A DNA stretch of 51,191 nucleotides from an uncultured bacterium. GTDB lineage: Bacteria > Cyanobacteriota > Vampirovibrionia > Gastranaerophilales > Gastranaerophilaceae. Numbering within the stretch: the stretch's first letter is position 1; every line of letters starts with the position of its first letter. The translations under genes were made by a program, and so were the position numbers. This document shows, one piece after another, positions 19,129-47,357 of this stretch. The notes beneath the pieces are model-generated. The model made no database searches. It was not told where the DNA came from and saw only the letters and a program-made list of their open reading frames with translations. The stretch lies in the NCBI GenBank assembly GCA_902763805.1, contig CACWTN010000007.1:8124-59314 (forward strand), in the 5' to 3' direction.

Positions 19129-20709
19129 CTAATCAGCATATTTTATTCTTCCGGTTTGGTTAATCACAATTGGTTTATTAAGATGCTTAATGTACTCACA
19201 GGTTAAGAATGCTTTATTAAACGGGAACTCTTCACATTTATCCTTTGGAGATAATATCTCATAATCAGCGCCCCAGGACATTATAAACGAATCTGCAACA
19301 ACTTTATACGTTTTATCTTCTCTCGGGTTATCAATGTCTATCGGATGTTCTGCTCCGTTTTTATCAACAAAATTCATTCCGACGAGTTTTTTTGTTACAG
19401 GATTAACCGTATAATTCAAGCCTGAAACAGCAAGAAGTCCGGGCTTGTTACCAATTGAGTTGTATGACACCTCAACAGACTTTTTAAACGCTTTAACCAG
19501 AGTTGCTTCGGAAACATCTGCAACAGAAATATTATCCGCAAAAGGAGCAATCTCTTTTATATCGCTTGAATCAATGTTTCCCTTTTTAAAATAATTTCTT
19601 GTTGCGGCATTATTCCAAATACCTATATCCGCACCCATTTCATTTTTCATTGCATCACACATAAAGTTAGCGTGCGGATTCTCCTCAAGCAAAGAGTTAG
19701 GCGCAGGCGGTGCGTATTCAATATAACCTACAGGTTCAGGCTTGCCCAAAATCTCATTAAACATATATTGGTGTACAAGGTTTCTGTGATAAAGTCCGCT
19801 TTCGCCGAGATTATTCTGCGCCTTTGTAATAACACCATCTTTTGAGAAGGTTAAATTAAGCTCTCCAAAGTGCTTGCCGTCTTTTCCTGCCTCGGTTATA
19901 ATTACAGGTTCGCCTGTTTTTGAATACACAAGGTTCTCGCCTTCCTCTATTCCCTTGAGCAGTTCGTGTGTATGTCCGCCTATTATTACATCAATTCCGT
20001 CCGTCTTCTTCGCAACTTCTTTATCTCTTTCTAATCCCAAATGAGATAATAGAATTATTTTGTTTATTCCCTGTTTTTTCAGTTCGTTTATTTCATGCTG
20101 AATAAGTTTTGTCGTTGTGTCCAAATCGTGAGCAGTACAGTCCTTGTGATAATCAGGATGCGTTGCTCTTTGGGTTAAGTCAACAGGAGTTGTTCCTATT
20201 AAACCGACTTTTTCACCTTTAATATCAACTATTGCAGAAGGTCTTACAAAATCCCTTATATTTGCTTTATTGTAATTTTCTATTTCTTGCTTATCCTGAG
20301 TTTCCAAAGGTTTTTGCTGAATATTAATCGCAAGGATTTCACCGTTAAACTTGGAAGCTGTTTCTTTCAAATCTGCCTGCTGAGTATCCATTTCGTGATT
20401 ACCGAGCGCCGTTGCTCTGACTGAGGCAAGATTTAAAAATTTAGCTGTTGCGTCATGCACGGGTCTGTTTTTTTCATCGCCAATATCGTTATCGCCGCCG
20501 GATAAAATAATATCGCCTTTTATTCCCGAAAGAATTCGCATCATATTGTTTGTCTGACCATGCAAATCGTTAACGTATCCTATTTTTATCTCAAAAGTAT
20601 CTTTGTCGGGAGTACGTTCAAGTTTATCCGCCCCCCTGAACAATGTATTTGAAATCGGGGATTTTTTATTATGTATATTATTTGTGATAGTAATGCCTTG
20701 GATGTTCAT
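19129..20709 (-). CDS. UshA-like 5'-nucleotidase/metallophosphatase, copy 2
   Basis: 526 residues. The metallophosphatase domain has the full metal-site series: YVNDLHGQ, GGDNDIGD, ALGNHEMD, LLSHLGL and GGHTHE. The C-terminal 5'-nucleotidase domain follows, with the GLLAVSGLNYTVNP region. UshA-family enzymes hydrolyse nucleotides or UDP-sugars, usually in the periplasm. Here there is no signal peptide; instead the first 30 residues are Asn/Ser-rich and end LFRGADK. It lies 6 bp downstream of a closely similar gene and is clearly its tandem duplicate. Either the protein is cytoplasmic, or the N-terminus is an unrecognised export or targeting signal. Confidence 0.88.
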   Translation of the reverse strand: MNIQGITITNNIHNKKSPISNTLFRGADKLERTPDKDTFEIKIGYVNDLHGQTNNMMRILSGIKGDIILSGGDNDIGDEKNRPVHDATAKFLNLASVRATALGNHEMDTQQADLKETASKFNGEILAINIQQKPLETQDKQEIENYNKANIRDFVRPSAIVDIKGEKVGLIGTTPVDLTQRATHPDYHKDCTAHDLDTTTKLIQHEINELKKQGINKIILLSHLGLERDKEVAKKTDGIDVIIGGHTHELLKGIEEGENLVYSKTGEPVIITEAGKDGKHFGELNLTFSKDGVITKAQNNLGESGLYHRNLVHQYMFNEILGKPEPVGYIEYAPPAPNSLLEENPHANFMCDAMKNEMGADIGIWNNAATRNYFKKGNIDSSDIKEIAPFADNISVADVSEATLVKAFKKSVEVSYNSIGNKPGLLAVSGLNYTVNPVTKKLVGMNFVDKNGAEHPIDIDNPREDKTYKVVADSFIMSWGADYEILSPKDKCEEFPFNKAFLTCEYIKHLNKPIVINQTGRIKYAD

Positions 20710-20715
20710 ATTGTC

Positions 20716-22311
20716 CTACTTTTTGTCGGTAAATTTTATTCTTCCGAGCTGATTGATAACTATGGGTTCATTTTTACGTTTTATATAATCACAGACCATA
20801 ACGTCTTTATCATAATTATACTTTTTGAGATAATCTTCTTCCTTTGCAAGAATATTGAAATCTGCTCCGGCAGACATCAGAAACTCGTCTGTTACAACTT
20901 TGTATTTCTTTGTTTCGCTTGGATTATTTATATCAATTTTGTGGGTTTTGCCTTTTTTATCTATAAAATTGAGTTCTTCAAGCGTTCCGTTTTTCGGATT
21001 AACAGTATAGTTTAATCCTGCAACTGCAAATAAACCCGGCTTGCGGCTGCTTGATGAATAAGTATCTTTTATTGCTTTCTTAAATAAATCAACAATAACA
21101 TTTTCAGGAACTTCCGCTACCGCAACGAAATCCAAAAACGGAGAAATGTCTTTGATGTCACGTGAATCTATTTCACCTTCGTGGAAAAAGTTTCTTACAC
21201 CGCAGTTGTGCCAGATAGCGATATCCGAATCCGTTTCAGCTTTCATAACATCACAGACAAAGTTTGCATGCGGATTTTCTTCTGTTAATGACTTTGGAGG
21301 AGGCGGTGCAGACTTTATATACCCGATTTTTTCAGGTTTTCCCAGCACTTCATTGAAAATATACTTATTAACTATGTTTCTGCGAAACAGCCCCGTTTCA
21401 CCCAAATTATTCTGTGCTTTTGTTATTATACCGTCTTTATCAAAAGTTAAGTTTAATTTACCGAAATAATTACCGTCACGTCCTGCTTCTGTCAAAATTA
21501 CAGGTTCTCCTGATGCAGAATAAAGAAGGTTTTCTCCCTCTTTAATCCCTTCAACCAGTTCGTGAGAATGTCCGCTTATAATAACATCAATTCCGTTTGT
21601 TTTTTCCGCAACCTGTTTGTCTGTCTTTAAACCTAAGTGAGAAAGCAGAACAATTTTATTTATACCCTGTTTTTTAAGATTATCAACTTCTTTTTGGATA
21701 TCTGCAATTGATTCATCAAGCTTATCTACGTGGCAATCTGTGTGATAAGACGGGTGCGTAAGTCTGTCAAGAAGGTCTATCGGAGCCGTACCCAAAAGTC
21801 CGATTTTTTCACCCTTAACGTCCACTATCTTAGAAGCTTTTAAACTATCCAGTAAATCAGCTCTGCCCAATTCTTCAACTTCTTTTGCATCCTGGTTTTT
21901 TACCGAATCTTTTTTCATATTAATTGTCAGAATGTCGCCGTTATAATCTTTTAATGAATCTATCAAATCAGCCTGAGTCGTATCCATTTCGTGATTACCG
22001 AGAGCAGTCGCAGCAACTTTTCCTATGTTTAAAAACTTGAAAGTTGCTTTATGAACAGATTTATTTTTTTCATCGCCGATATCATTATCCCCTGCAGACA
22101 AAATCAAATCGCCTTCAAGCCCCGAAAGAATTCTCATCATGTTGTTTGTCTGACCGTGCGCATCATTAACATACCCTATTGAGATGTCAAACGTATCCTT
22201 TTCAGGAGTTCTTTCTAACGGACTTGTGACATCTTTTTTTGTTGATTGATTATGTACTGCCGGATTTACTGCTTTAAAAGGAATAAATCCGCGAATGATG
22301 TTGATTTTCAT
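20716..22311 (-). CDS. UshA-like 5'-nucleotidase/metallophosphatase, copy 1
   Basis: 531 residues, first gene of the tandem pair. Motifs are YVNDAHGQ, SAGDNDIGD, ALGNHEMD, LLSHLGL and SGHSHE, with FAVAGLNYTVNP in the C-terminal domain, so the metal and substrate sites look intact. The N-terminus begins MKINIIRGFIPFKAVNPAV: no signal peptide, but an FKA motif within 15 residues. Sequence shared with the downstream copy is high from residue about 30 onward (for example ERTPEKDTFDISIGYVND against ERTPDKDTFEIKIGYVND), so the duplication is fairly recent. A TTGGTTTATAAAG promoter-like stretch lies upstream at about 22337-22349. Confidence 0.88.
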   Translation of the reverse strand: MKINIIRGFIPFKAVNPAVHNQSTKKDVTSPLERTPEKDTFDISIGYVNDAHGQTNNMMRILSGLEGDLILSAGDNDIGDEKNKSVHKATFKFLNIGKVAATALGNHEMDTTQADLIDSLKDYNGDILTINMKKDSVKNQDAKEVEELGRADLLDSLKASKIVDVKGEKIGLLGTAPIDLLDRLTHPSYHTDCHVDKLDESIADIQKEVDNLKKQGINKIVLLSHLGLKTDKQVAEKTNGIDVIISGHSHELVEGIKEGENLLYSASGEPVILTEAGRDGNYFGKLNLTFDKDGIITKAQNNLGETGLFRRNIVNKYIFNEVLGKPEKIGYIKSAPPPPKSLTEENPHANFVCDVMKAETDSDIAIWHNCGVRNFFHEGEIDSRDIKDISPFLDFVAVAEVPENVIVDLFKKAIKDTYSSSSRKPGLFAVAGLNYTVNPKNGTLEELNFIDKKGKTHKIDINNPSETKKYKVVTDEFLMSAGADFNILAKEEDYLKKYNYDKDVMVCDYIKRKNEPIVINQLGRIKFTDKK

Positions 22312-24568: not shown

Positions 24569-25303
24569 TCAAATAAGTTCATCCAGCTTACAGACCGAAA
24601 CCTGTCTGAACTGGCTTCTTAAAAAATCTCCTGTTTTGCCTTCTCTGCGCGTTCTTTTATATGTAAAAGTTCCGTCACTGTAATACTCTTTTTTATACGT
24701 ATTATATTCTATAGAATTTTCTTTTACATCTATCTCAGGTTTCTTTCTTCCTGTTATCTGTTTATCTGCAAGGCTGTTTGAAATATAAACGGTATCATTT
24801 TTTGTTGAACAAAACATTGAATATTTACCGAAGTAATGCACATTTTTTCTTGCACCGAAAATTGTATACGGGATACTTATATCGTCAAAAAATTTAGTAA
24901 TTTTGTTTAAGTGTACATAATTGTCTTTTTTAAGAGGATTCAGATGAAAACCGCCAAGGATTACGGCGTGAAGGTTTTCACTGTCTAAATTAACCCCCTC
25001 CAGCAATCTCCGTTTCACATTCTCTATATTAAAACCTTTTTGCTTAGTCTTTTTTGCTTCTCCGTGTTTAAATATTGCAAAATGTCCCAGTTTAACTTTT
25101 CCGCCGTCAATAAGCGCGACAGTGATACAGTCCATAACCCCGGTCGTAAAAAGATTTTTACCCGTTTTCATCGTATCAGCAGTCCAGGGCCAGCCAACTT
25201 CATGCTTTTTGGGGTTAAGATGGGCGGTCATATCTTTAAATGTTTTATAATCAACAAATTTTATTTTTGACTGAAATGATATGTTATTATTTTCGATTTT
25301 CAT
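24569..25303 (-). CDS. CheD-like putative Cys deamidase with FQS-type N-terminus
   Basis: 244 residues, not an annotated family that I can name with certainty. The segment TTGVMDCITVALIDGGK aligns by eye with the CheD active site pattern (T-x-G-L-G-S-C-V-A-V-x-L-Y-D), giving Cys59 and Thr53. LGHFAI, 15 residues on, supplies His74, close to the 17-residue Cys-His spacing of Thermotoga CheD. HAVILGGF and, later, FGKYSMFCSTKNDTVYIS resemble the GGA and G-R-x-x-F...TGxVxV strands of CheD. CheD deamidates glutamines of chemoreceptors, but no chemotaxis gene is nearby. The N-terminus, MKIENNNISFQSKIKF, carries the recurrent window motif; the C-terminus is Lys/Arg/Tyr-rich and extra to CheD. A deamidase or fold-only relative is the best guess. 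Confidence 0.6.
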   Translation of the reverse strand: MKIENNNISFQSKIKFVDYKTFKDMTAHLNPKKHEVGWPWTADTMKTGKNLFTTGVMDCITVALIDGGKVKLGHFAIFKHGEAKKTKQKGFNIENVKRRLLEGVNLDSENLHAVILGGFHLNPLKKDNYVHLNKITKFFDDISIPYTIFGARKNVHYFGKYSMFCSTKNDTVYISNSLADKQITGRKKPEIDVKENSIEYNTYKKEYYSDGTFTYKRTRREGKTGDFLRSQFRQVSVCKLDELI

Positions 25304-28674: not shown

Positions 28675-28710
28675 AGGCGGTTTTGGGAAAATTCCCAAAA
28701 CCGCCTTTTT
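28675..28710 (+). terminator. Rho-independent terminator of ppdK
   Basis: A 15-bp perfect stem, AGGCGGTTTTGGGAA (28675-28689) with TTCCCAAAACCGCCT (28692-28706), followed by TTTT. It starts 24 bp after the stop codon. Confidence 0.95.
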
Positions 28711-28777: not shown

Positions 28778-30244
28778 CTAAACTTTGCCGATAAACTTAA
28801 TATTGCACTCACTAACAAGTTCTTCGTGCGCAAGAACAGTTAAATTAGGTACAAACTCACTTAAAATTACAAAAATCATATGTCTGATATCCATTGGTAC
28901 AACAATTACAGGGTTTGTTATCTTCTTTGATTTTGCAAACTTAATCAGTTTGTTTCCGATTTCTTCTACATCTTTTGCTTCTATACGAACAATACCTTCA
29001 TCTTCATCTTCGCCAAAGAACGCATATATTTTTTCCAGAACTTCATCTGAAAATTCTATAACTCTGAGTTCACCATCAACCGCCAAATCTTTAATTATAT
29101 GCTTTGAAAGAGCCAGACGAACTTTGTCGAGCAAATCTTCTTTTGTTGGTTCGCCGGCATAATCATTAATTTTTTCAAAGATATAAACAATATTTTTAAC
29201 GGAAACGTGTTCTCTGATTAAGCAGGTCAGCAAATATTTTAGATCAGATGCAGCCATAAAATCAGGCAGAATATTATCTACAAGGAATGAGTTCGTTTCA
29301 AGGACTTTTTCAACGTATTTATTAACATCGCTGTAGTCCATAATATCCGAAACTTCCTCAACTGCAACAGTTTCAATTGCCTTACCTATGTATTCAACTG
29401 CTGTCATACCGTGTACCCAGAAATCTTTAACTTTTTCCTGAGGTATCCAAATCATCTTTTTATTTGTTATCTCATCAGTCAGAACAATGTCATCTTCCGT
29501 AACTTTGTATCCTTTGAGTTCATCTCTGTAATAAGCTACGTAACCCGGAAAAACTACGGTTCTCAAAAGCTCAATATCGTGGATTTTTATGCTGAACTCA
29601 TTCTGATTAAGTTCATCGCTGTTATGGAAGAAAATATGCGGAATAACATATCCCAAAGAATCCGCAAGTTTTTGTCTGATTTTAACGGTTTCCGCAAGCA
29701 GATTATCGTTAGCCTCCATCGAAATAACTTCCAGTATTTCTTCGGAAAGATTAACAACAAATTTTTCTTCCTTAATTGTTGCAAACATTGCATCAGGTGA
29801 AATCTCGCTTACAAGAGATTGTTTAAGATTATCCAGCTGCTTAAGTTCATCAGACATCTGAGTATTAAGCTGATTTTTCTCATTCGGAGATAAACTGTCA
29901 CTCTCCAGCTGAGATTTAATCTTCTTAATTCTCTCTTTCTGGTTAGAAATCTTCAGCTGAATTTCTTTGCAGGAAGCATAAGGACTTGAAGGAGCCGCAA
30001 GCATTTTTTCCATACGGTATTTAAAGCTTGTGATATTAACAATATCATCAAGGTCTTCCTGTTCTTCTTCCTGTTTTTGACGCATAAAAATACAGTTGAA
30101 ATCGTATGAGTTTTCTGTTTCAACTTCGTGCATCGTATATAAATCCCAGCCCTCATCAGACATCTGGTTAAGCAGGTCTTCAAGAGCCTGTTTATCGTCT
30201 GTCGGAACTGACTTTATTACATACTGCATTTTTTTGTTGTACAT
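28778..30244 (-). CDS. Soluble FlhA-C/type III export-gate domain protein
   Basis: 488 residues with no transmembrane segment. Residues about 6-55 form a small domain (MQYVIKSVPTDDKQALEDLL, then EGWDLYTMHEVE) that resembles DUF4177. Residues 90-145 are a charged coiled coil. Residues about 160-488 read as the cytoplasmic domain of FlhA/EscV-type export gates: IRQKLADSLGYVIPHIFFHN, NEFSIKIHDIELLR, FPGYVAYY, MIWIP, the TAVEYIGKAIE helix, LLTCLIREHVSVKNIVYIFE, VRLALSKHII, VIVVPMDIRHMI and a final VLAHEEL. In FlhA this domain forms the nonameric cytoplasmic ring that receives chaperone-substrate complexes. Here the eight-helix membrane part is replaced by the N-terminal module, and no flagellar or secretion gene is visible. 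It lies 40 bp after the ompH stop in the bamA-ompH transcript. Confidence 0.85.
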   Translation of the reverse strand: MYNKKMQYVIKSVPTDDKQALEDLLNQMSDEGWDLYTMHEVETENSYDFNCIFMRQKQEEEQEDLDDIVNITSFKYRMEKMLAAPSSPYASCKEIQLKISNQKERIKKIKSQLESDSLSPNEKNQLNTQMSDELKQLDNLKQSLVSEISPDAMFATIKEEKFVVNLSEEILEVISMEANDNLLAETVKIRQKLADSLGYVIPHIFFHNSDELNQNEFSIKIHDIELLRTVVFPGYVAYYRDELKGYKVTEDDIVLTDEITNKKMIWIPQEKVKDFWVHGMTAVEYIGKAIETVAVEEVSDIMDYSDVNKYVEKVLETNSFLVDNILPDFMAASDLKYLLTCLIREHVSVKNIVYIFEKINDYAGEPTKEDLLDKVRLALSKHIIKDLAVDGELRVIEFSDEVLEKIYAFFGEDEDEGIVRIEAKDVEEIGNKLIKFAKSKKITNPVIVVPMDIRHMIFVILSEFVPNLTVLAHEELVSECNIKFIGKV

Positions 30245-30284: not shown

Positions 30285-30731
30285 CTATTTTGCAAATTTA
30301 AGTTTTTGAATTACGTTCGGAGTAATATCAACACCACCCGTAAATACGCCTGCAGAACTCATAATTACATCGAGTTTCTGTTCTACCATAACTGATTTAG
30401 CAGCGTCATGTATTCTGTCATATACTTCTTTTTCTCTTTTTTCTCTCAGTGCAACGTAAGCTGCTTCTTTTGCTTTAAACTCCTGAGAAACTCTGTCTTC
30501 AAAAGACTGTTTTTTTAGAGGTGTATCAAGATTTTTGTATTCTTTTTCTTTATCAACAAGGAATTGCTGCATTTCTAAACCCTTGGCATCAATTTCCTTT
30601 GTTGCCTGTTTTGCATAATCATAATTTTCAATAACCTTGGTGTAATCTATATACCCGACACCGCCGGCATTAGCAATACCTGTCATCGCAATAATTGCAA
30701 GTGCAGCCAAACCTAATTTCAATCCCTTCAT
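30285..30731 (-). CDS. OmpH/Skp family periplasmic chaperone
   Basis: 148 residues with a clear signal peptide (MKGLKLGLAALAIIAMTGIA, cleavage probably after NA near residue 22). The mature protein opens with VGYIDYTKVIENY, the OmpH start strand, followed by a long charged helical arm (roughly residues 40-110) and a returning C-terminal strand (KLDVIMSSAGVFTGGVDITP). Skp-like trimers hold unfolded outer membrane proteins on their way to BamA, whose gene is directly upstream. The 58-bp spacing from bamA is consistent with co-transcription. Confidence 0.92.
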   Translation of the reverse strand: MKGLKLGLAALAIIAMTGIANAGGVGYIDYTKVIENYDYAKQATKEIDAKGLEMQQFLVDKEKEYKNLDTPLKKQSFEDRVSQEFKAKEAAYVALREKREKEVYDRIHDAAKSVMVEQKLDVIMSSAGVFTGGVDITPNVIQKLKFAK

Positions 30732-30789: not shown

Positions 30790-32700
30790 TTAGTACATCA
30801 TATCTCCTACACCAAAAGTGAAGTATCCGTTTTTGTTGCCGTTCGGACCCGGATTTGTAAGCGGGAAGCCATAATCAACAGACAGAGGACCAACACCCGG
30901 CATATTAAGTTTCAAACCGACACCGGCCGTAATTGCGTGAAGCGGTCTGTCATATAATATACTTGTTGTTGTAGGATTAAACACCGTACCTGCATCAACC
31001 CAGAAGGTTACTCTCAGGTTTTGCAGAAAAGCAAGTTTTAACTTGTCAACAAAAGGTATCGGAGTAGCAAGTTCAGCCGAACCCATTATAAATGATGTAC
31101 CCGTACCTACACCGTTAACCTTGTACCCTCTGACCGTATAAGGTCCGCCCAAACGATAAGCCATAAATTCAGGCATATTTGTACCGTGAACCTTTAAACC
31201 GCCTCTGCCGGTAAAGGTCAAAGAAGATTTTTTGGCAACCGGAATGTATTTCTTTGCCATACCTGTCAAACGTCCGTTCGTTTTGTTAAATTCGTCCAAA
31301 CCGAACGCTTCTTCATATCTCACCGATGCAATTACGCCGTGACGGGGATTAATTGCCGAATCTCTTGAATCATAAGATAATCCCGGAGCAATTTTTAAGA
31401 AGAACCCGCCTTCCAGCTCTTTTGCACGGTCTGCAATATTGAGTCCGTGAGCGTTATACAACGAAGTTATCTTTGCTCTGTCACCTTCAGTAAAGTCAAC
31501 ATATTCGCCGCCAAGAGTTAATGTTGATGATATACGCTTGTTAGTTTTCAGACGATGAGCTATCGTACCCTCAAGCCCGATACGTCTTTCAGTTGCAAGC
31601 GGTATCTGATAACTGCCTAAATCTCTGTAATATATTTTGCTCATCAGAGAGTTGTCAGCATTGAGGAAATGCGGTTCAAAGAAACTGATTTCGCCCTGGT
31701 AGTTAACTCTGTTCAGTATTGATGAATCACTCATCAGTACACCTGAACCAACCATACCCGAAACAGAAACTCTCTGGTTTCTGCCCCTGAAGTTGTTATC
31801 AGTTATACCCAGAGAACCGAATACACCGGTTGCGGAATCAAGACCGCCGCCTACTGATACGGATGCTGTTCTTTGTTCTTTCAGTTCAATCGTAATATCA
31901 TATTTATCAGGATCTTCAGGAGATGCCTCAATAGAACGGTTAACATCTTTAAACGCCTGCGTTGAATACAATCTTACCAAATCCTGTTTCATCTGGTTTT
32001 CATTGTATACACTGCCGGGTTCCGTCATAATATTACGTTCAATAACGTATTCCTTCGTTTTTTCATTACCTGAAATAGAAATAGAGTTGATTTTTCCTTC
32101 GGTAATACTGAGGTTTAAAGTTCCGTCAGGGTCATCATAAACGGAATCTATTTTTGACAATATGTAACCTTTGTCATAATAACACTGGTTAATTTGCTCC
32201 ATTGCCTGATTAATTGCTGCTATGTTTTGGGGTTTGCCTTTGAGCGGAAGAAGGTATTTCATAATTTCCTCAGATGAAACTACCGTATTACCTTCTATGG
32301 TGAAATCTGTTATAGGTATATTTTCTTCTACAATAATTTTCAAAGAAATAGTACCATTTGAATTTTTAACAGGAACAGCCTTCATTTTTTCAGTGAAATA
32401 TCCCAGTTTATATATGGTTTTAAGGTCCTGCTGCATTACATCTTTATCATATAAATCGCCCTTCTTAAGCTTCATTTTGGATAAAATGTAATCTGATTTG
32501 ATAATATTCGAACCTAAAATTTCTATATCGCTGATATAAGCCGTATTTGAATCATAGGTTGATTCTTCAATATAATCCGTTTCATTTATTGCTGCATCGT
32601 CAACACTTTCTGCAGAGCAAGTCAAAACAGGTATTGTTAGGGCAGACAACACCAAGGATAATGTTATTAAATTTTTATATAACAACGATGATTTTTTCAC
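30790..32700 (-). CDS. bamA: BamA/Omp85 outer membrane assembly factor
   Basis: 636 residues. GTG start at 32700 with GGAG 7 bases upstream. A signal peptide (LYKNLITLSLVLSALTIPVL) precedes three POTRA domains: ISDIEILGSNIIKSDYI, then ITDFTIEGNTVVSSEEI, then INSISISGNEKTKEYVI. The Omp85 barrel begins at VSVGGGLDSATGVFGSLG and contains the conserved GYKVNG loop (RLGGPYTVRGYKVNG) and a final YGFPLT strand ending in GVGDMMY. It inserts beta-barrel proteins into the outer membrane. Three POTRAs, not five, is the cyanobacterial Omp85 layout. An 84-bp gap separates it from the upstream PurH-like gene; ompH and the FlhA-C-like gene follow. Confidence 0.94.
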   Translation of the reverse strand: MKKSSLLYKNLITLSLVLSALTIPVLTCSAESVDDAAINETDYIEESTYDSNTAYISDIEILGSNIIKSDYILSKMKLKKGDLYDKDVMQQDLKTIYKLGYFTEKMKAVPVKNSNGTISLKIIVEENIPITDFTIEGNTVVSSEEIMKYLLPLKGKPQNIAAINQAMEQINQCYYDKGYILSKIDSVYDDPDGTLNLSITEGKINSISISGNEKTKEYVIERNIMTEPGSVYNENQMKQDLVRLYSTQAFKDVNRSIEASPEDPDKYDITIELKEQRTASVSVGGGLDSATGVFGSLGITDNNFRGRNQRVSVSGMVGSGVLMSDSSILNRVNYQGEISFFEPHFLNADNSLMSKIYYRDLGSYQIPLATERRIGLEGTIAHRLKTNKRISSTLTLGGEYVDFTEGDRAKITSLYNAHGLNIADRAKELEGGFFLKIAPGLSYDSRDSAINPRHGVIASVRYEEAFGLDEFNKTNGRLTGMAKKYIPVAKKSSLTFTGRGGLKVHGTNMPEFMAYRLGGPYTVRGYKVNGVGTGTSFIMGSAELATPIPFVDKLKLAFLQNLRVTFWVDAGTVFNPTTTSILYDRPLHAITAGVGLKLNMPGVGPLSVDYGFPLTNPGPNGNKNGYFTFGVGDMMY

Positions 32701-36453: not shown

Positions 36454-37962
36454 ATGAGAATAAATCCAATCAACGGTATAATGCCGGGTTGTCAGGCAAT
36501 AATTAATCACAAAGCAGACAGACAGATACAAACTTCAAACAGAATTACAGACTTAAATGCACTAAATAAAAATTATAATCAGCTAAACTTCAGGGGAGTA
36601 TCCTCAAAAGAATCTCTTGATTATGTACTTAAAATACCGCTTGAAGACAGGCTTGCTTCAATGTTCGAAAAAGTTGAAAAAGGCGACTTAATTCTTGTCG
36701 GAGAAAAATTAAGCAATGCAAAAACCAAAATGCTTGAAAGCATCTCAAGTATTGATGAAACCATAAAACGTGTATTTTTTCTTCCCGAAAAAAAATACAA
36801 AGGCTATGTCGGATTTTTCATAAACAAAGACTGGGACAAAGAAGTTATTAACCTGAACAATTCAGAGATTAAGCTTATTGATGCCGAAACTCTTAAATCG
36901 GATATATTAACTCCGCATGACAGCTATTACGTTTACGAAAACGATTTAATGCTCATTCCTGGGAATTACGATACGCTTCAAATCAAAGAAAAACCGAAAG
37001 TTGATTTATCGGGATTCAGAAAAAATTTCTGCAAAGCTGTTGATTTTTCTTCTCTTGAAAAAGCTGAAGTAGAAAAATTTAACAGAAAAATTGTATCTCA
37101 GCTTTCAAGAGAAGCAAAAGAAGTTTCAAATAAAGTTACATTCAAAGACGTAGGCGGTCAGGATGCTCTCATTACAGAGCTTAAAAGAAGTATTCTTTAT
37201 CCGATAAAATATCCTGAAATGTACGATACTTTTGATGTAAACAAAGGTTTTATTCTCTACGGTCCCGCCGGAACAGGTAAAACGCATATTGCAAGAGCTC
37301 TTGCAAACGAAGCAGATGCAAACTTTATCAGTCTTAACGGCTTGGAAATGGAATCAAAATGGGTTGGCGAATCAGAAGAAAACTGGAGAAACCTTTTTGA
37401 TGAAGCACGTCAAAAGCAGCCTTCAATAATGTTCATTGATGAAATTGACGCCATAGGTAAATCAAGAGGCGGTTCAGATACATACGGTGACAAAGTTCTG
37501 AACCAGATGCTGACTTTGATAAGCGACCTTGACAGCAGCCGTGATAATATTTTTATCATCGGTGCAACAAACAACTTCAAAGCTTTAGATAAAGCTTTAA
37601 TCCGTTCGGGAAGACTGAGCAAACATCTGGAAGTTAAACTGCCTGACCGTGACGGCGTTAAACAGATATTTGAAATACATTCAGGAAAGAAACCGCTCGA
37701 CAAAAAAATCGACAAAGAAGCTCTCATAGACAGGCTCTATGACCTCAAAGCAAGCGGTGCCGACATAAGATACGTTATAAATGAAGCTCACGTTATGGGT
37801 TATGACAGAGCAGGTATCCATGAAAAAATGGAAAACGGCACAATTACCGCAAGGGATAAACATAACTTCAGAATAACTCAGGAAGACTTTGACAAAGCAA
37901 TTGATAAATTTGTTGAAACCCGTAACGGCACAGACAGAAAACCTATCGGTTTCAAGGGATAA
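36454..37962 (+). CDS. AAA+ ATPase with tagged N-terminus, p97/spastin-like core
   Basis: 502 residues. The N-terminal 40 residues are Asn-rich and end QLNFRGVSS, the recurrent motif; residues about 60-220 form a globular region I do not recognise. The AAA+ core begins [20 protein letters not shown] and has Walker A GPAGTGKT (residues 270-277), a pore loop KWVGESEEN, Walker B FIDEID with Glu330, sensor NNF and an arginine pair [12 protein letters not shown]. The C-terminal helical lid follows, and the protein ends KPIGFKG. The core is closest to Cdc48/p97-spastin-type unfoldases (KYVGESE-like pore) with one ATPase ring. AAGGAG precedes the ATG. The client and cofactor are unknown. It starts a run with rsmE, the CCA enzyme and the phosphatase. 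Confidence 0.88.
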
Positions 37963-40209: not shown

Positions 40210-40701
40210 ATGTACATATCATTTTCAAATATAAATTTTTTGGGTAAACCCTCAAATTACGCAAAAATAGATGAATACGTTTCACGCTCCGCACAGCCTC
40301 AGAAAGAAGATTTTGCATGGCTAAAAGAACAGGGTGTTACGGATGTAATCAACTTCCGTACTATGCATGCGCCGGAGATTAATTTTAACGAAGAAGCAGA
40401 AGTAAAAAAAGCCGGAATGAAATATCATAATATTCCTTCCGTAACAACAGACCCAAAAGAAGAAAATATTGACTTATTTTTAAAAAAGATAGAAGACATA
40501 AAAGCAAAAGGAGGAAAAGCACATATTCACTGTAAAGCAGGCGCAGACAGAACCGGCATGTACTCTTTTATCTACAAAATAAAAAACAAACTTGACAGTA
40601 TTACCCAATGTGAAGCTGAATGGTTTAAATTCGGTTATCACTACAAACGATATCCTGAGCTAATGGACTGGACAGTTAAGTTTGTATCAAAATACAAATA
40701 A
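40210..40701 (+). CDS. Dual-specificity/tyrosine phosphatase with tagged N-terminus
   Basis: 163 residues. The signature HCKAGADRTGM holds the nucleophile Cys108 and Arg114 of a cysteine-dependent phosphatase. DVINFR (the D-L-R-type strand) precedes it, and VSRSAQPQKEDFAWLKEQGV gives the usual 'R-S-x-Q-P' opening of bacterial small DSP-like enzymes. The N-terminus begins MYISFSNINFLGKPSNY, carrying the recurrent F-x-G motif. The substrate is unknown; phosphoproteins, inositol phosphates and RNA caps are all targets of this superfamily. AAAGG precedes the ATG. A TGGTTTTATACT promoter-like box, also found before the AAA+ gene, lies 15 bp upstream. Confidence 0.9.
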   Translation: MYISFSNINFLGKPSNYAKIDEYVSRSAQPQKEDFAWLKEQGVTDVINFRTMHAPEINFNEEAEVKKAGMKYHNIPSVTTDPKEENIDLFLKKIEDIKAKGGKAHIHCKAGADRTGMYSFIYKIKNKLDSITQCEAEWFKFGYHYKRYPELMDWTVKFVSKYK

Positions 40702-42348: not shown

Positions 42349-45300
42349 TTATTCATGCTGCTCTGTGGAAAAAGAATCTTCGTCTGAGCCTTCCGCCATC
42401 CCGGAAAGGTCATCTTTTTCAACTTGAGTAAATTCGGCAGACTTTTTAACAACATTTCCGTATATTCTCGATAATTCGCCGTTTGGCGCAGTAATCAGTA
42501 ATTTTTGCCGTTCAACATCTTCATCAAACCTCTGACCGCACTGTTTCATAGTATCTATATACAGTTTTTCAAACATCGCAAAGAAAACTTTTGACTGATT
42601 ACCGTGCTTTTGTATCTCATCAAGCATGTTATTTATTATTACCAGTGCATCGCTAAGCTCGTTACTGTCAATTTTTGTTATTGCGGTGAAATAATTTGCA
42701 AGAACCGTTGTATTAAATATTGCAGACTGTTCGGAAGTTTCCTGAACATCGTTATAAATATGATAAGCTTTACTTATAATACCTATTTTTGCATACGCTA
42801 AAGCAATCAGCAGGTCGCAAATGTATTCGAGCTGGGTCTGATGGATATCTTCTGCAAGAAGTTTTGCCTGATAAACATTTAGCGCAAATGCTTTGTAATC
42901 CGTTTTCCTGCTTGACAATTCCTGAAGAAGTAAACAAATTATCTTTGAAAACGGAGTTTCTTCCTCAATATTTGAAGGTGCATAATCTTTTCCGGCTAGA
43001 AAATCTCTCAGCGCCAGCAGACAATTTTTCTCAGGAAGATCTTCATCAAATGCTGTTTTAACCAAATCAAAGAATTCATCAATATTTTTATCAACGGTAA
43101 GAACCTTTGCCAAACCGACCAGCTTGAATGTATCCAGCAAATGAGATACAAATAATCCCAAAGAAAAGCTTTCAGGCTTAATTTCTTCAAGGATATCCGG
43201 CTTAATTACGCCCAGAAGCTTTTCGCCAACTTCTATACAATCGTTGTATTCGCCTATATTAAACAAAATTTCTATATTAACAAGCGATAACAACAAAAAT
43301 TTTGTATTGATTTTGCCGTCAACAATCAGCTCAGGATGTTCAAGACGTTCCAGAATATTGTGAAGCAAATTTAATGCGTCCGTGTAATTTGAGGATAATA
43401 AAGCACCCTGGAGCATTAAATTAGAAAGCTTAACTATTTTTGCATCATCATTGGCATTTATGGCATCCATCAATAAAATATTTTCTATTGAGTATATCTT
43501 TGCCGGAGAGTAATTATAAAGGCTCATCAAAATATTTTGGAATACTTCTTTTTTATTGCTCTCTATATCTGACGAATTAATATTGTCCTTTATCTTATCT
43601 ATTATCGATAAAAATCCGAGACAGTTTTTCAGGTATGAATCATAATCTCCCGTAGATATAGCCCTCTGGGAATTTTTCCACAACAGAAGGTATTCTTCTT
43701 TGTAAGTTTCAATAACATCCATTAATTTAATTAATGTCGTATTATCAAGCAACTTGCCCAGTTTTGCCATAACATTTTTTGCCAGCGTTTCTAAAATTTC
43801 TTTTTTTAGTGATGAATACAATATCGGACGAACGAAAGAATAGTTATTGATATAAACAGACCCGTTTGCCGTATGGGTAAAACCGCTTGCATCCAAAAGT
43901 TTCGTATTTTCGGGAATATTTTTTATACCTGCTGCCTCCAGCGTCTCAAAATCAATTCTTTCCCCGAGGAATACCGAATAAGCAAGAATCATTGATGCAT
44001 CCTGATGCTTCCCGAAGGTTTTTAAACGTGCTTTTATTAATTTTTCCGCATTTATCGGCATAAGGACAGAACTGCTGTCACGGACTACCAATTTGCCTTC
44101 CATATTAACAAGCACATCTTTGTCCGTAAGATATTTTAAAGCATGCTCAAAATATAATTTGGAACCGTCAAAATTATCCTTTATTTTTTCATAATAGAAA
44201 GATTCTATAAAATCTGCTGCATCTTCTTTAAGCTCCGATAAAAGAGTTGATATATTGCTTTTCATCAGGCTTATTTCCGTATAAATCGGGGTTCTCAGCA
44301 AGCCTTTTATTTTAGTATGAACCGAGCATCCTGCATCTGTTATAAACACAAAATTCGTATTTACGTTCCTGAATTTATCAAAATACAATTCAAGAGTCTG
44401 CAGAGAAGTGTCATCAAGCTTTTCAAATCCGTCAACAATAATTACGCACCGCCGTAACGAAGCCAGAAAATTAACGAACATTTCCATTACGGCAAATCTT
44501 GCATCCTCCGGGGTCATTGCCTTAACGGGAGCTCCGAGTATAAAATCACGGATATTATTAAACCGTCCGCAATCACAATCAGGTTTTATTAAACCGTTTA
44601 TTACGGGAAGTCCGAAGTACTGCTTAAACACCTTTTCGAAAAATCCCCACGGACTGTAGCATAAATCACCATTACAGGATACATATACCGGTGTTAATCC
44701 CTGTTCTTTGTAGAACCTGAGTATGTCTGAAGTTTTTATCTGATATTCTTTTTTCTCTGTTTTTATTGCTACAATTTTATTTTCAGGTTTTAATTTTGAT
44801 TCCAGCTCGCCCGCATAACACTTTTCAAAATTACACCTTGCCTTTATATCAAATACTTTAAAGCTGAAAATATCATTGTTCTCTTTTTCTGTTTTTTTGT
44901 CTATTTGCTGCTGCTGAACGGTCATAGCTTCGTCCTCAACCGTACTCGGCGGCAAAACATAATTATCAATTAGTACCTCATAATACATTACGGTTTTGCC
45001 GTCATACTCAAGAGAATACAGCGAATCTGTTTTATAATCATTTGATACACAGTCTTGCGAATATTGGTCAAGTATAATTTCCATACCTCTGATGTACTTT
45101 TTATCATCTTTTTTAAACGTCAGAGGCTTTACATTATTTTCCAATGACTTATTAACCAGTAAATTTTCAGCATCTTTTTTTTGGATAACAATACTTATTT
45201 TTAAGGGACAGCCAAGCTGTTCCTGCAAACGTAAATTCAGACCTGCAAATGTATTGAGTATTTTAAGCGACAATCTGACAGCCCGATTTACGGAAGATAC

Positions 45301-45741
45301 AAAAGAAAGCTCTTTATTAAAATTAATTACATAAGAATCTCCGTACCTAACCACAAGACCTTCAAAGCCTTTAAGCTGAGTCAGCATGAGATTTTTCAGT
45401 TTCACCTTAAATTTTGAATAAAGTTCTTTTGACGCCAGCAAATTTCTGATTGCTTTTAAAGAACCGAAATTTATGGTTACGGAAGCAAACTCATCCGTTT
45501 CACATTCATTACATGCAATACTTTTTGTTACACTTAAACCGCATTTACACTGCTCAACATTTGTCGGAACAAGTCTTCCGCATTTTGCACACTTTTCCAG
45601 AATAATATATCCGCAGCTTTCACACACACTGCTTTTACTTTTGGAAAGACAATTCGGACATATCAGTGAAATTACCTTGCGGCAATGCGGACAGGTTGTT
45701 GAATTATCACTTATTATTCTATGACATTTGGGACATTCCAT
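42349..45741 (-). CDS. Zinc-ribbon, cyclase-like, degenerate ATPase and helical-repeat protein (1130 aa)
   Basis: Residues 1-95 hold four zinc-ribbon cysteine pairs (CPKCHR, CPHCRK; CPNCLS, CESCGY; CAKCGR, CKCG; CNEC). Residues about 85-290 resemble a degenerate class III nucleotide-cyclase fold (SVTINFGSLKAIRNL, LKGFEGLVVRYGDSYVINF, NRAVRLSLKIL) without the catalytic Asp pair I would expect. An AAA/STAND-like ATPase region follows: where a Walker A G-x-x-x-x-G-K-S/T should be, the sequence is NKIVAIKTEKKEYQIKTS, but a Walker B-like CVIIVDGFEKLDD remains. The C-terminal 500 residues are helical repeats, TPR-like. The layout resembles large signal-integrating regulators. It is divergent from the ZorA-like gene by 57 bp, with a TATAAT only 8 bp before its ATG and no ribosome site. 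Confidence 0.75.
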   Translation of the reverse strand: MECPKCHRIISDNSTTCPHCRKVISLICPNCLSKSKSSVCESCGYIILEKCAKCGRLVPTNVEQCKCGLSVTKSIACNECETDEFASVTINFGSLKAIRNLLASKELYSKFKVKLKNLMLTQLKGFEGLVVRYGDSYVINFNKELSFVSSVNRAVRLSLKILNTFAGLNLRLQEQLGCPLKISIVIQKKDAENLLVNKSLENNVKPLTFKKDDKKYIRGMEIILDQYSQDCVSNDYKTDSLYSLEYDGKTVMYYEVLIDNYVLPPSTVEDEAMTVQQQQIDKKTEKENNDIFSFKVFDIKARCNFEKCYAGELESKLKPENKIVAIKTEKKEYQIKTSDILRFYKEQGLTPVYVSCNGDLCYSPWGFFEKVFKQYFGLPVINGLIKPDCDCGRFNNIRDFILGAPVKAMTPEDARFAVMEMFVNFLASLRRCVIIVDGFEKLDDTSLQTLELYFDKFRNVNTNFVFITDAGCSVHTKIKGLLRTPIYTEISLMKSNISTLLSELKEDAADFIESFYYEKIKDNFDGSKLYFEHALKYLTDKDVLVNMEGKLVVRDSSSVLMPINAEKLIKARLKTFGKHQDASMILAYSVFLGERIDFETLEAAGIKNIPENTKLLDASGFTHTANGSVYINNYSFVRPILYSSLKKEILETLAKNVMAKLGKLLDNTTLIKLMDVIETYKEEYLLLWKNSQRAISTGDYDSYLKNCLGFLSIIDKIKDNINSSDIESNKKEVFQNILMSLYNYSPAKIYSIENILLMDAINANDDAKIVKLSNLMLQGALLSSNYTDALNLLHNILERLEHPELIVDGKINTKFLLLSLVNIEILFNIGEYNDCIEVGEKLLGVIKPDILEEIKPESFSLGLFVSHLLDTFKLVGLAKVLTVDKNIDEFFDLVKTAFDEDLPEKNCLLALRDFLAGKDYAPSNIEEETPFSKIICLLLQELSSRKTDYKAFALNVYQAKLLAEDIHQTQLEYICDLLIALAYAKIGIISKAYHIYNDVQETSEQSAIFNTTVLANYFTAITKIDSNELSDALVIINNMLDEIQKHGNQSKVFFAMFEKLYIDTMKQCGQRFDEDVERQKLLITAPNGELSRIYGNVVKKSAEFTQVEKDDLSGMAEGSDEDSFSTEQHE

Positions 45742-45772
45742 ATTGAAAATTATAGTCTAATATTAAACATTA

Positions 45773-45781
45773 TGCTATACT
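45773..45781 (+). promoter_or_regulatory. Extended -10 promoter of the motor pair
   Basis: TGCTATACT (45773-45781) is an extended -10 box (TG-n-TATACT). It ends 17 bp before the ATG at 45799, leaving a leader that holds the GGAGGG ribosome site. A reverse TATAAT (45749-45754) faces the large zinc-ribbon gene. Confidence 0.45.
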
Positions 45782-45798
45782 TTATAAGGAGGGTAATT

Positions 45799-46683
45799 AT
45801 GAGCTTTATTACAATTCTTACGGAACCTGCAATCCTGATAATTATAGCAGTGTTTGTTTGTTTCTTATTTATAACGGTAACTAACTACGCAAGAGTAAAA
45901 ACTAACTTAAAAAATATTTACAAAACATTAAAAGATATCGACAAGAAAGAAATGTCATACAGATTTAAACAGCTCGATTCTTTTATGGCTTCAAACTCTT
46001 ATACGTCAACTGTTTGGGAAGATTTTAAAAAAGCATTAATATTCCCCGACAAATTTTATATTGCGGCGCAAAATATGAAAAATCCGCAGGAAGTACAGAC
46101 CGACATCTTTTTGACAATTGATGCTCCGTACTTTTTCAACGAAGAAACTCTTGTTTCTTCAAAAATTAACCATAAATTCATTCAGACAATGCCGACGATT
46201 TTAACAGGGTTTGGTCCGTTTTTCACATTCCTGAAAATGGCTGTAGCATTTAAAGAAGTAAGCTTTATGGAAAATACGGACGTATCCGCATCGCTGAACG
46301 GTTTGATAGGAAACATTCAAATAGCGGCGCTGTGCTCCGTTTTTGCAGTCGGTTTTTCTCTGTTATTTATGTTCATTGAAAAAATACTTTATAACAAAAT
46401 GTGCAAAAAATATTACTTATTGATTCAGCAGGAATTTGTAAGATTATTTGATGTTGTAACGAGCGAAAGATTTCTTATTGATTTGGTTAAAGAATATAAA
46501 CTTCAGGGAAAATCAAGCGAAAAAATTCTGAAAGAACTTCCCGAAAACTTTGCTAAAGCAGTAACAAACAGTATTAACGAAACAACAACTCCGTATCTTG
46601 AAAATATCTTGTACAGTTTAAACAAACTAAATGAAAATTTTGGCAAGAATAACGGCGGAGATGTCGTAGATAAACTTTTCTAA
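45799..46683 (+). CDS. MotA/ZorA-like proton-channel subunit
   Basis: 294 residues from the ATG at 45799, which has GGAGGG 5 bases upstream; a frame back to 45721 has no ribosome site. Three membrane segments are visible: ILTEPAILIIIAVFVCFLFI at the N-terminus, MPTILTGFGPFFTFLKMAVA, and GLIGNIQIAALCSVFAVGFS. The second-third block matches the MotA/TolQ/ExbB channel pattern (L-T-G-x-G-x-F-F-T-F) as seen in ZorA of Zorya. The C-terminal cytoplasmic tail is about 80 residues, much shorter than the long tails of classical ZorA. It is paired with the OmpA-domain gene 14 bp downstream. It would form a pentamer around two MotB-like subunits and use a proton gradient. Confidence 0.8.
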   Translation: MSFITILTEPAILIIIAVFVCFLFITVTNYARVKTNLKNIYKTLKDIDKKEMSYRFKQLDSFMASNSYTSTVWEDFKKALIFPDKFYIAAQNMKNPQEVQTDIFLTIDAPYFFNEETLVSSKINHKFIQTMPTILTGFGPFFTFLKMAVAFKEVSFMENTDVSASLNGLIGNIQIAALCSVFAVGFSLLFMFIEKILYNKMCKKYYLLIQQEFVRLFDVVTSERFLIDLVKEYKLQGKSSEKILKELPENFAKAVTNSINETTTPYLENILYSLNKLNENFGKNNGGDVVDKLF

Positions 46684-46697
46684 AAAGAGGGTCATAA

Positions 46698-47357
46698 ATG
46701 CGCATAACTTTAAAAAAAGAAGAAAATTCCGAAAATAATATTTTCTGGGTTACAATGACAGACCTGATGACGGCTCTTGTACTGGTTTTCATTATTTTAT
46801 TCTTCTACGCATACATGACAAACTTCGCTGATAAAATTGAAAGCGTAACAGAACAGCAAAAAGCTGCGGAAGCGTTACAGGAAACTCTGAAAAAACAGAA
46901 TATTCAGGCTTCCATTAACGGCATAACCGGTGTCGTAAAAATATCAGATTTAGAATTGTTTGAGCTAAGCAGCTATGAGCTATCTCCAAAAGGAAAAGAA
47001 TATTTATCCAAATTTGCACCCGCTTACCTTAACTCTCTGTTTTCTAACGCATATCTTAAAGAAAATCTGGATAAAATCATTATTCAGGGGCATACGGATT
47101 CTCAAACTTTTGCAGGTAAATATTCAAAAGACGAACAATATATGAAGAATATGGATTTAAGCCTAAAGCGTGCTTATGCCGTTGCAAATTACATGATAAA
47201 CACCCCATACAACAAGGCGAACGGTGACAAACTTCATAAAATGATAATTGTAGAGGGTGCAAGCTACTCAAACCCCGTACTTACCAATGGTAAAGAAGAC
47301 TTTGCAAAAAGCAGACGTGTTGAACTTAAACTTGTTATGAAAGAGAAAAAGAAATAA
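46698..47357 (+). CDS. MotB/ZorB-like OmpA-domain stator subunit
   Basis: 219 residues. AGAGGG precedes the ATG. The N-terminus NNIFWVTMTDLMTALVLVFI is the ZorB-type single helix with the proton-carrying Asp (W-x-x-M-x-D-L-M). A helical plug and an OmpA-like peptidoglycan-binding domain follow, with IIIQGHTDSQ, LSLKRAYAVANYMI and KSRRVELKLVMK (the R-x-x-R-V-E-L end). Together with the upstream gene it makes a complete two-subunit motor. No helicase, nuclease or EH-signature (ZorC/D/E) gene lies within the following 4 kb, so a complete Zorya system is not present here. Confidence 0.82.
   Translation: MRITLKKEENSENNIFWVTMTDLMTALVLVFIILFFYAYMTNFADKIESVTEQQKAAEALQETLKKQNIQASINGITGVVKISDLELFELSSYELSPKGKEYLSKFAPAYLNSLFSNAYLKENLDKIIIQGHTDSQTFAGKYSKDEQYMKNMDLSLKRAYAVANYMINTPYNKANGDKLHKMIIVEGASYSNPVLTNGKEDFAKSRRVELKLVMKEKKK

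Follow-up and report, generated by a model that had tools for sequence, protein, structure and literature searches.

A membrane-free FlhA cytoplasmic domain next to bamA and ompH

The window, i.e., the whole stretch of 51,191 nucleotides that was analyzed, comes from an uncultured member of the Gastranaerophilaceae (order Gastranaerophilales) whose genome assembly (G000) comprises 1.96 Mb in 20 contigs and is 99.7% complete. ORF calling and translation revealed one intact ORF of 488 amino acids on the minus strand at positions 28778 to 30244, here referred to as the stand-alone FlhA-C protein. The features of the locus are as follows:

28675 to 28706, no strand assigned: terminator-like inverted repeat with a 14-bp stem, between the stand-alone gene and the convergent ppdK gene (consensus scan only)
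28778 to 30244, minus strand: stand-alone FlhA-C protein, 488 amino acids (ORF; FHIPEP E value of 2.9e-45, profile positions 321 to 655 only; orthologues order-wide)
28781 to 29746, minus strand: residues 167 to 488, FlhA cytoplasmic domains D1 to D4 (Pfam and structure; equivalents of F459, T490, and G368 lost)
29747 to 29800, minus strand: residues 149 to 166, FlhA linker segment SPDAMF, compare NPNKMY in FlhA2 (alignment; P150 invariant, M153 nearly invariant)
29801 to 30070, minus strand: residues 59 to 148, low-confidence segment followed by a predicted coiled coil (helices 71 to 82, 88 to 113, and 120 to 148; AlphaFold2 model)
30071 to 30244, minus strand: residues 1 to 58, small β-α-β-β domain, DUF4177-like (AlphaFold2; weak DUF4177 match; W33, C51, I52, and F53 invariant)
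30285 to 30731, minus strand: ompH, encoding a periplasmic chaperone of the Skp type, 5' of the stand-alone gene and presumed to be cotranscribed with it (PF03938, E value of 3.3e-14)
30790 to 32700, minus strand: bamA, encoding an Omp85 protein with POTRA domains, 5' of ompH and likewise presumed to be cotranscribed (PF01103, E value of 2.7e-44)

The initial annotation had placed the gene last in a bamA-ompH transcript. This order is correct, with gaps of 58 and 40 bp along the three genes and the terminator-like repeat on the 3' side, and cotranscription is presumed.

The Pfam family FHIPEP (PF00771) matched residues 133 to 479 of the stand-alone protein, and the match covers positions 321 to 655 of the 657 profile positions, that is, the linker and the cytoplasmic domain. 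The eight-helix export channel with the FHIPEP motif is absent, as judged from the start of the match at profile position 321 and from hydropathy: the highest mean Kyte-Doolittle value in 19-residue windows was 1.63, with no transmembrane-like segment, compared with maxima of 2.9 to 3.0 for the full-length FlhA proteins of the same genome. The protein scored 131.9 bits against the curated NCBI FlhA equivalog (TIGR01398; cutoff, 772.1) and 87.2 bits against the curated SctV model, far below its cutoff of 692.25.

An AlphaFold2 model of the 488-amino-acid protein (mean pLDDT, 75; pTM, 0.59) consists of an N-terminal β-α-β-β domain at residues 6 to 56 (strand 6 to 14, helix 18 to 30, strands 34 to 42 and 47 to 56), a weakly predicted stretch at residues 59 to 86, long helices at residues 88 to 148, and then the FlhA-C fold. 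The top PDB matches of the model were FlhA cytoplasmic domains, with 6ch2 at a Foldseek E value of 3.6e-20 (TM score of 0.84 by target), and VIA aligned 339 residues of nonameric FlhA-C (7amy) with a Z score of 28.9 at 4.0 Å, covering model residues 142 to 488. The initial reading of this gene as a membrane-free FlhA cytoplasmic domain is thus borne out by the profile range, the hydropathy, and the fold, and the small N-terminal domain and coiled coil that it proposed both appear in the model, with residues 59 to 86 weakly predicted. For the fold of the N-terminal domain, no convincing match was obtained with Foldseek (best E value, 0.034) or VIA (best Z score, 5.6, to a KCTD5 region). The name DUF4177-like is reasonable in that 9 of 17 orthologues weakly match this family (PF13783; best E value, 3.2e-4), although the window protein itself, with 13.5 bits (E value of 0.087), does not reach the gathering cutoff of 25 bits.

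Two sets of export genes in Gastranaerophilales

As initially annotated, no recognizable flagellar or type III export gene lies within the window. One such gene, fliP2, is found on the same contig 55 kb past the window end (G000:C7:114839-115411). The genome as a whole is not free of flagellar genes and encodes two intact FlhA proteins, FlhA1 (863 bits; gene order fliP-fliQ-fliR-flhB-flhA) and FlhA2 (724 bits; gene order fliE-fliF-[346 aa]-fliH-flhA). FlhA1, FliP1, FlhB1, and 11 flagellin-domain matches make up a flagellar set, and FlhA2, FliF2, FliP2, FliQ2, FliR2, and FlhB2 make up a second export set, here referred to as system 2.

All 287 Gastranaerophilales genomes that are at least 90% complete contain an FHIPEP match. 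By table count, a match of FlhA1 strength is missing in about 160 of them, nearly all from other genera of the window's family, and most of these have two FHIPEP matches, FlhA2 and the stand-alone protein. In selected genomes, FliP and FliF each fall into two classes, FlhB is encoded at two sets of loci, and FliF1 and Flagellin_N co-occur in 12 of 12 genomes. Flagellin, FliF1, and FliP1 were absent from all 23 checked genomes without FlhA1, and these genomes encode FliP2 (23 genomes), FlhB2 (23 genomes), FliF2 (20 genomes), FlhA2 (20 genomes), and the stand-alone protein (22 genomes). The stand-alone protein is therefore independent of the flagellum, and the idea that it is a purely flagellar part was rejected on the basis of these aflagellate genomes.

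When curated NCBI cutoffs were applied, FlhA1 and FliP1 passed as flagellar proteins. FlhA2 (704.5 bits; cutoff, 772.1), FliF2 (111.9 bits; cutoff, 129.75), and FliR2 (151 bits; cutoff, 168.6) fell below the flagellar cutoffs, FliP2 did so narrowly (216.6 bits; cutoff, 217.45), and FlhA2 was also below the curated SctV cutoff. Loci with genes of system 2 are as follows:

L007:5486-11494, L232:8147-12174, L110:6960-9379, and G000:C14:19174-20199: system 2 genes (FliE, FliF2, FliH2, and FlhA2; FliM/N, FliO, FliP2, FliQ2, and FliR2; FliJb; FlhB2), a system kept in genomes without flagellin

For genomes of the window's family that lack flagella, the gene orders at the loci read are fliE-fliF2-(FliG position)-fliH2-flhA2 and FliM/N-FliO-FliP2-FliQ2-FliR2. 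At five other loci (L112, L114, L116, L124, and L243), system 2 forms a single long cluster with rod-like genes, holding two flgG-like genes, flgB, flgC, fliE, fliF2, fliH2, flhA2, and fliI and in some cases fliJb, a fliK-like gene, and a flgE-like gene. The stand-alone gene lies outside the system 2 operons in every locus read.

Conservation and origin of the stand-alone family

A protein of about 490 amino acids matching only profile positions of about 321 to 655 is encoded in nearly every genome of the order (relatives of 17 genera), and since the family occurs across the order, chance similarity is excluded. A profile of the first 132 residues, a region lacking in FlhA, detected the stand-alone protein in 35 of 40 selected genomes; the remaining five had been included on account of their low FHIPEP match counts. 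The nearest records are metagenome-assembled genomes from rumen and gut, many of them named Candidatus Gastranaerophilales or Melainabacteria. An alignment of 17 stand-alone sequences (A1) had a mean column identity of 53%, and W33, C51, P150, R190, W266, W276, IFE355-357, and R376 are among its invariant residues. Comparison with a 93%-identical relative gave a dN/dS ratio of about 0.025, with synonymous sites near saturation, indicating strong purifying selection, and the gene was accordingly rejected as a pseudogene.

In a sample of the order, the mean identity was 87.9% for the FlhA2 cytoplasmic region (sample weighted to one family), 69.2% for FlhA1, and 40.3% for the stand-alone family. 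The high value for FlhA2 makes it unlikely that system 2 is a decaying remnant. The stand-alone protein is 28.4% identical to FlhA2 and 22.0% identical to FlhA1. In an IQ-TREE phylogeny of the FlhA-C region, the stand-alone proteins formed a single clade (support, 100/100), and a branch with support of 100/99 separated this clade, together with two fusions of a FliG-position module to FlhA-C, from FlhA2, FlhA1, and the reference FlhA proteins. FlhA1 grouped with FlhA of Salmonella, Bacillus, and Helicobacter (100/100), leaving FlhA2 nearest to the stand-alone clade. The exact attachment of the clade is uncertain because its branch is long; judged from these sequences, the family most likely stems from the FlhA2 side. 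Sister orders carry FlhA2, and the stand-alone protein of about 490 amino acids was not seen there.

Docking and hinge residues are lost

In Salmonella FlhA, F459 and T490 are part of the chaperone-docking site (PMC8166844, PMC9431611), G368 of the GYXLI motif is the hinge of the open-close motion (PMC9431611), and the nonameric ring is stabilized by the FlhA linker (PMC8166844). In our alignment, the F459 position is Phe in 16/16 FlhA1 and Tyr or Phe in 14/14 FlhA2 sequences and is aromatic in 0/16 stand-alone proteins; Thr at the T490 position is found in 16/16 FlhA1, 14/14 FlhA2, and 0/16 stand-alone sequences; and Gly at the G368 position, present in all 16 FlhA1 and all 14 FlhA2 sequences, is replaced by Ser in all 16 stand-alone proteins. 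The equivalent of D456 is Asp in 15 of the 16, and the stand-alone linker, SPxxMY/F, is similar to that of FlhA2 (NPNKMYERLGVD). Thus, the fold and the ring-linker segment have been retained but the docking pocket and the switch have not. A substrate-docking function, as put forward in the initial annotation, is unsupported because the F459 and T490 equivalents are absent in every orthologue aligned.

Gene neighborhood

In 79 of 80 near relatives (47 to 93% identity), the bamA-ompH pair lies 5' of the stand-alone gene, either directly or via a pyrimidine nucleoside phosphorylase gene, and the order bamA-ompH-Udp-stand-alone gene recurs in G060, G094, and G057, three genomes from other genera that lack flagella. 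Six other families do not show the linkage, nor do G170 and G181, which represent two flagellated genera of the window's family; it is old, yet confined to part of one family, and was rejected as order-wide evidence. Outside the genomes with this linkage, the stand-alone gene is mostly found among unrelated genes. In one genus (G039 and G044), rplT is followed by the stand-alone gene and, after 147 bp, by fliJ-fliK-flgD-flgE, and in a related genus (G047), rplT is present beside the stand-alone gene and fliJ is not. Adjacency to fliJ, being limited to one genus, was likewise rejected as general evidence.

A putative cytoplasmic subunit of system 2

The reading that we favor, at a little short of an even chance, is that the stand-alone protein belongs to system 2 as a cytoplasmic subunit, either a ring or an adaptor. 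Derived from FlhA2, it would sit at the cytoplasmic face of this flagellar-descended export machine, where it would act as an adaptor that is fixed in place or as a regulator. Assembly would rely on the FlhA linker and on D3 contacts, both retained, and would yield a ring of its own or one shared with the C-terminal domains of FlhA2. The N-terminal β-α-β-β domain and the coiled coil may substitute for the membrane anchor and offer a new binding face for the FliH/FliI/FliJ side or for cargo, and chaperone docking and the open-close function would be left to FlhA2. Ring formation, physical contact with FlhA2, and the adaptor role are the parts of this proposal that we infer; the fold, the missing membrane part, the phylogenetic placement, the conservation and distribution of the family, the occurrence of system 2 in aflagellate genomes, and the residue losses are computational results. 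It is conceivable, and we put this more tentatively, that members of the Gastranaerophilales assemble a further type III export machine, one that lacks a filament, descends from flagellar parts, and is neither a flagellum nor an injectisome and whose gate combines the membrane protein FlhA2 with an order-specific cytoplasmic ring protein.

A link to system 2 is favored by the other FlhA-C paralogues without a full channel, which match FlhA2 best and one of which is fused to a FliI-type ATPase. Further points in its favor are the two complete export-gate sets, the occurrence of the gene in aflagellate genomes, the tree position and higher identity on the FlhA2 side, the FlhA2-like linker, and the low dN/dS ratio. 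Points against it are the location of the gene outside system 2 operons and the sister orders that have FlhA2 and in which the stand-alone protein was not seen. Co-occurrence of the stand-alone gene and system 2 says little, since each is found in nearly all genomes of the order. In three genomes (G079, G154, and G263), the stand-alone gene is present and FlhA2 and FliF2 were not detected, and in one genome (G167), system 2 is present and the stand-alone gene was not detected. The former three were rejected as decisive proof of independence from system 2 because FliF2 and FlhA2 share one cluster, so that a single assembly gap could explain their absence.

The main rival, which we regard as unlikely, is that the ring domain has left export altogether and now acts as a cytoplasmic scaffold or regulator of envelope biogenesis, coexpressed with BamA and OmpH/Skp. 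The conserved bamA-ompH neighborhood in near relatives and in the three aflagellate genomes, the lost docking and hinge residues, and the three genomes with a stand-alone gene and no detected FlhA2 or FliF2 are all consistent with it. However, the sites of action of BamA and OmpH lie beyond the cytoplasm and the stand-alone protein has neither signal nor anchor to get there, the phosphorylases next door point to a housekeeping operon and not to an envelope module, and the linkage is absent elsewhere, so that the envelope role suggested initially is possible but is not reflected order-wide in gene order. A distinctly less probable alternative is a soluble decoy that controls export by titrating type III chaperones, substrates, or FliJ off FlhA1 or FlhA2; while the domain is homologous, soluble, and nearly always retains the D456 equivalent, the two residues central to chaperone docking and the hinge glycine are lost in 16/16 proteins. 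An accessory role in the flagellum (system 1), for instance, in hook-to-filament switching, is suggested by the position of the gene upstream of fliJ-fliK-flgD-flgE in G039 and G044 but is very improbable. Of the 23 genomes that lack flagellin, FlhA1, FliP1, and FliF1, 22 encode the protein, which largely refutes such a role unless system 2 inherited it, and the fliJ adjacency is restricted to one genus. Finally, a split, truncated, or decaying FlhA has a negligible probability and was rejected: the protein spans only the C-terminal half of FlhA, but two intact full-length FlhA genes reside in the same genome, and the family forms a single old clade that has N-terminal domains not shared with FlhA and a very low dN/dS ratio, in agreement with the initial view of a repurposed domain.

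Relation to known systems

Compared with FlhA (FHIPEP, TIGR01398), the proposed system 2 subunit shares the linker and D1 to D4 but lacks the membrane channel and the F459, T490, and G368 equivalents and has a new N-terminal domain and a coiled coil. The injectisome gate proteins (SctV/CdsV/MxiA/EscV) have the same C-terminal fold, whereas the stand-alone protein lacks the membrane part and is closer to FlhA in sequence. With DUF4177 it shares a short β-α-β-β unit, here fused to a coiled coil and FlhA-C. The cytoplasmic half of an export gate protein is also found alone in C-terminal-only paralogues of FlhB (FlhX and Bacillus subtilis YlqH). By description these are set apart, being single-domain forms of a different gate protein, whereas the stand-alone FlhA-C has gained two parts.

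Flagellar export genes (FT3SS) are kept and used in the nonflagellated Lysobacter enzymogenes OH11 (PMC7277350); there, one remnant set is linked to twitching, whereas in Gastranaerophilales the set is a second, paralogous one, which flagellated relatives have in addition to their flagellar genes. Di Rienzi et al. (2013) listed two flhA genes common to four Melainabacteria genomes, and a second export system is not described in the accessible part of that paper (PMC3787301). Soo et al. (2014) interpreted partial gene sets as nonfunctional flagella (PMC4040986), and where gut Melainabacteria have incomplete sets of flagellar genes, the published view is that flagella were lost (PMC4040986; for MEL.A1, PMC3787301). 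The accessible portion of the literature on Gastranaerophilales or Melainabacteria and type III secretion describes no second set. Likewise, no report of the stand-alone family was found in the open-licence literature, an absence that is weak evidence. Our data indicate that many of the flagellar "remnants" of gut Melainabacteria are a second, strongly conserved export system, also present beside a true flagellum in flagellated relatives. With this, the structure, cargo, and role of system 2 become a testable question in common gut bacteria, which outweighs the finding of the stand-alone protein itself.

To our knowledge, FlhA-C has been regarded as a part that does not occur apart from the export channel. 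The conservation of a stand-alone FlhA-C shows that the ring domain can exist alone and which functions are dispensable there.

Other FlhA-C paralogues and minor observations

The initial statement that FlhA-C is always tethered to the channel was too strong, as other FlhA-C pieces without a full channel occur in the class. A 217-amino-acid mini FlhA-C adjoins gyrB in the window's own genome (L008:9301-9954), and 12 of the 33 further genomes from this genus encode relatives. A 598-amino-acid fusion (L126:6085-7881; G001) joins an N-terminal FliG-position-like module to FlhA-C (E value of 5.3e-47), and a 995-amino-acid triple fusion (L125:7697-10684; G011) joins the same module to FlhA-C (8.5e-56) and a FliI-type ATPase (1.9e-38; T3SS_ATPase_C, 7.4e-14). 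The triple fusion retains hydrophobic stretches, and the notion that all FlhA-C paralogues are soluble was rejected for the FliG-position fusions (hydropathy maximum, 2.92). In a sister order, a 289-amino-acid FlhA-C piece lies directly downstream of FlhA2 (L258:8998-12114), possibly a snapshot of how such paralogues arise.

A polar start followed by an xxFxG/A/S motif was noticed in unrelated proteins of the window (24569 to 25303, 36454 to 37962, 19129 to 22311, and 40210 to 40701) and at L110:879-1370. It could be a lineage-specific signal, perhaps for export by system 2; in a crude test of 133 proteins, xxFxG/A was merely 1.7-fold enriched in the first 50 residues. The stretch from 19129 to 22311 encodes tandem related proteins of about 530 amino acids that are 5'-nucleotidase-like by eye. 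A 1,130-amino-acid protein (42349 to 45741) has a weak N-terminal double zinc ribbon, no other Pfam family, and a distant relative at L055:3138-6677. Positions 45721 to 47357 encode a ZorA/ZorB-like pair related to MotA/MotB (ZorB1 E value, 9.9e-50; ZorA1 E value, 1.6e-29).
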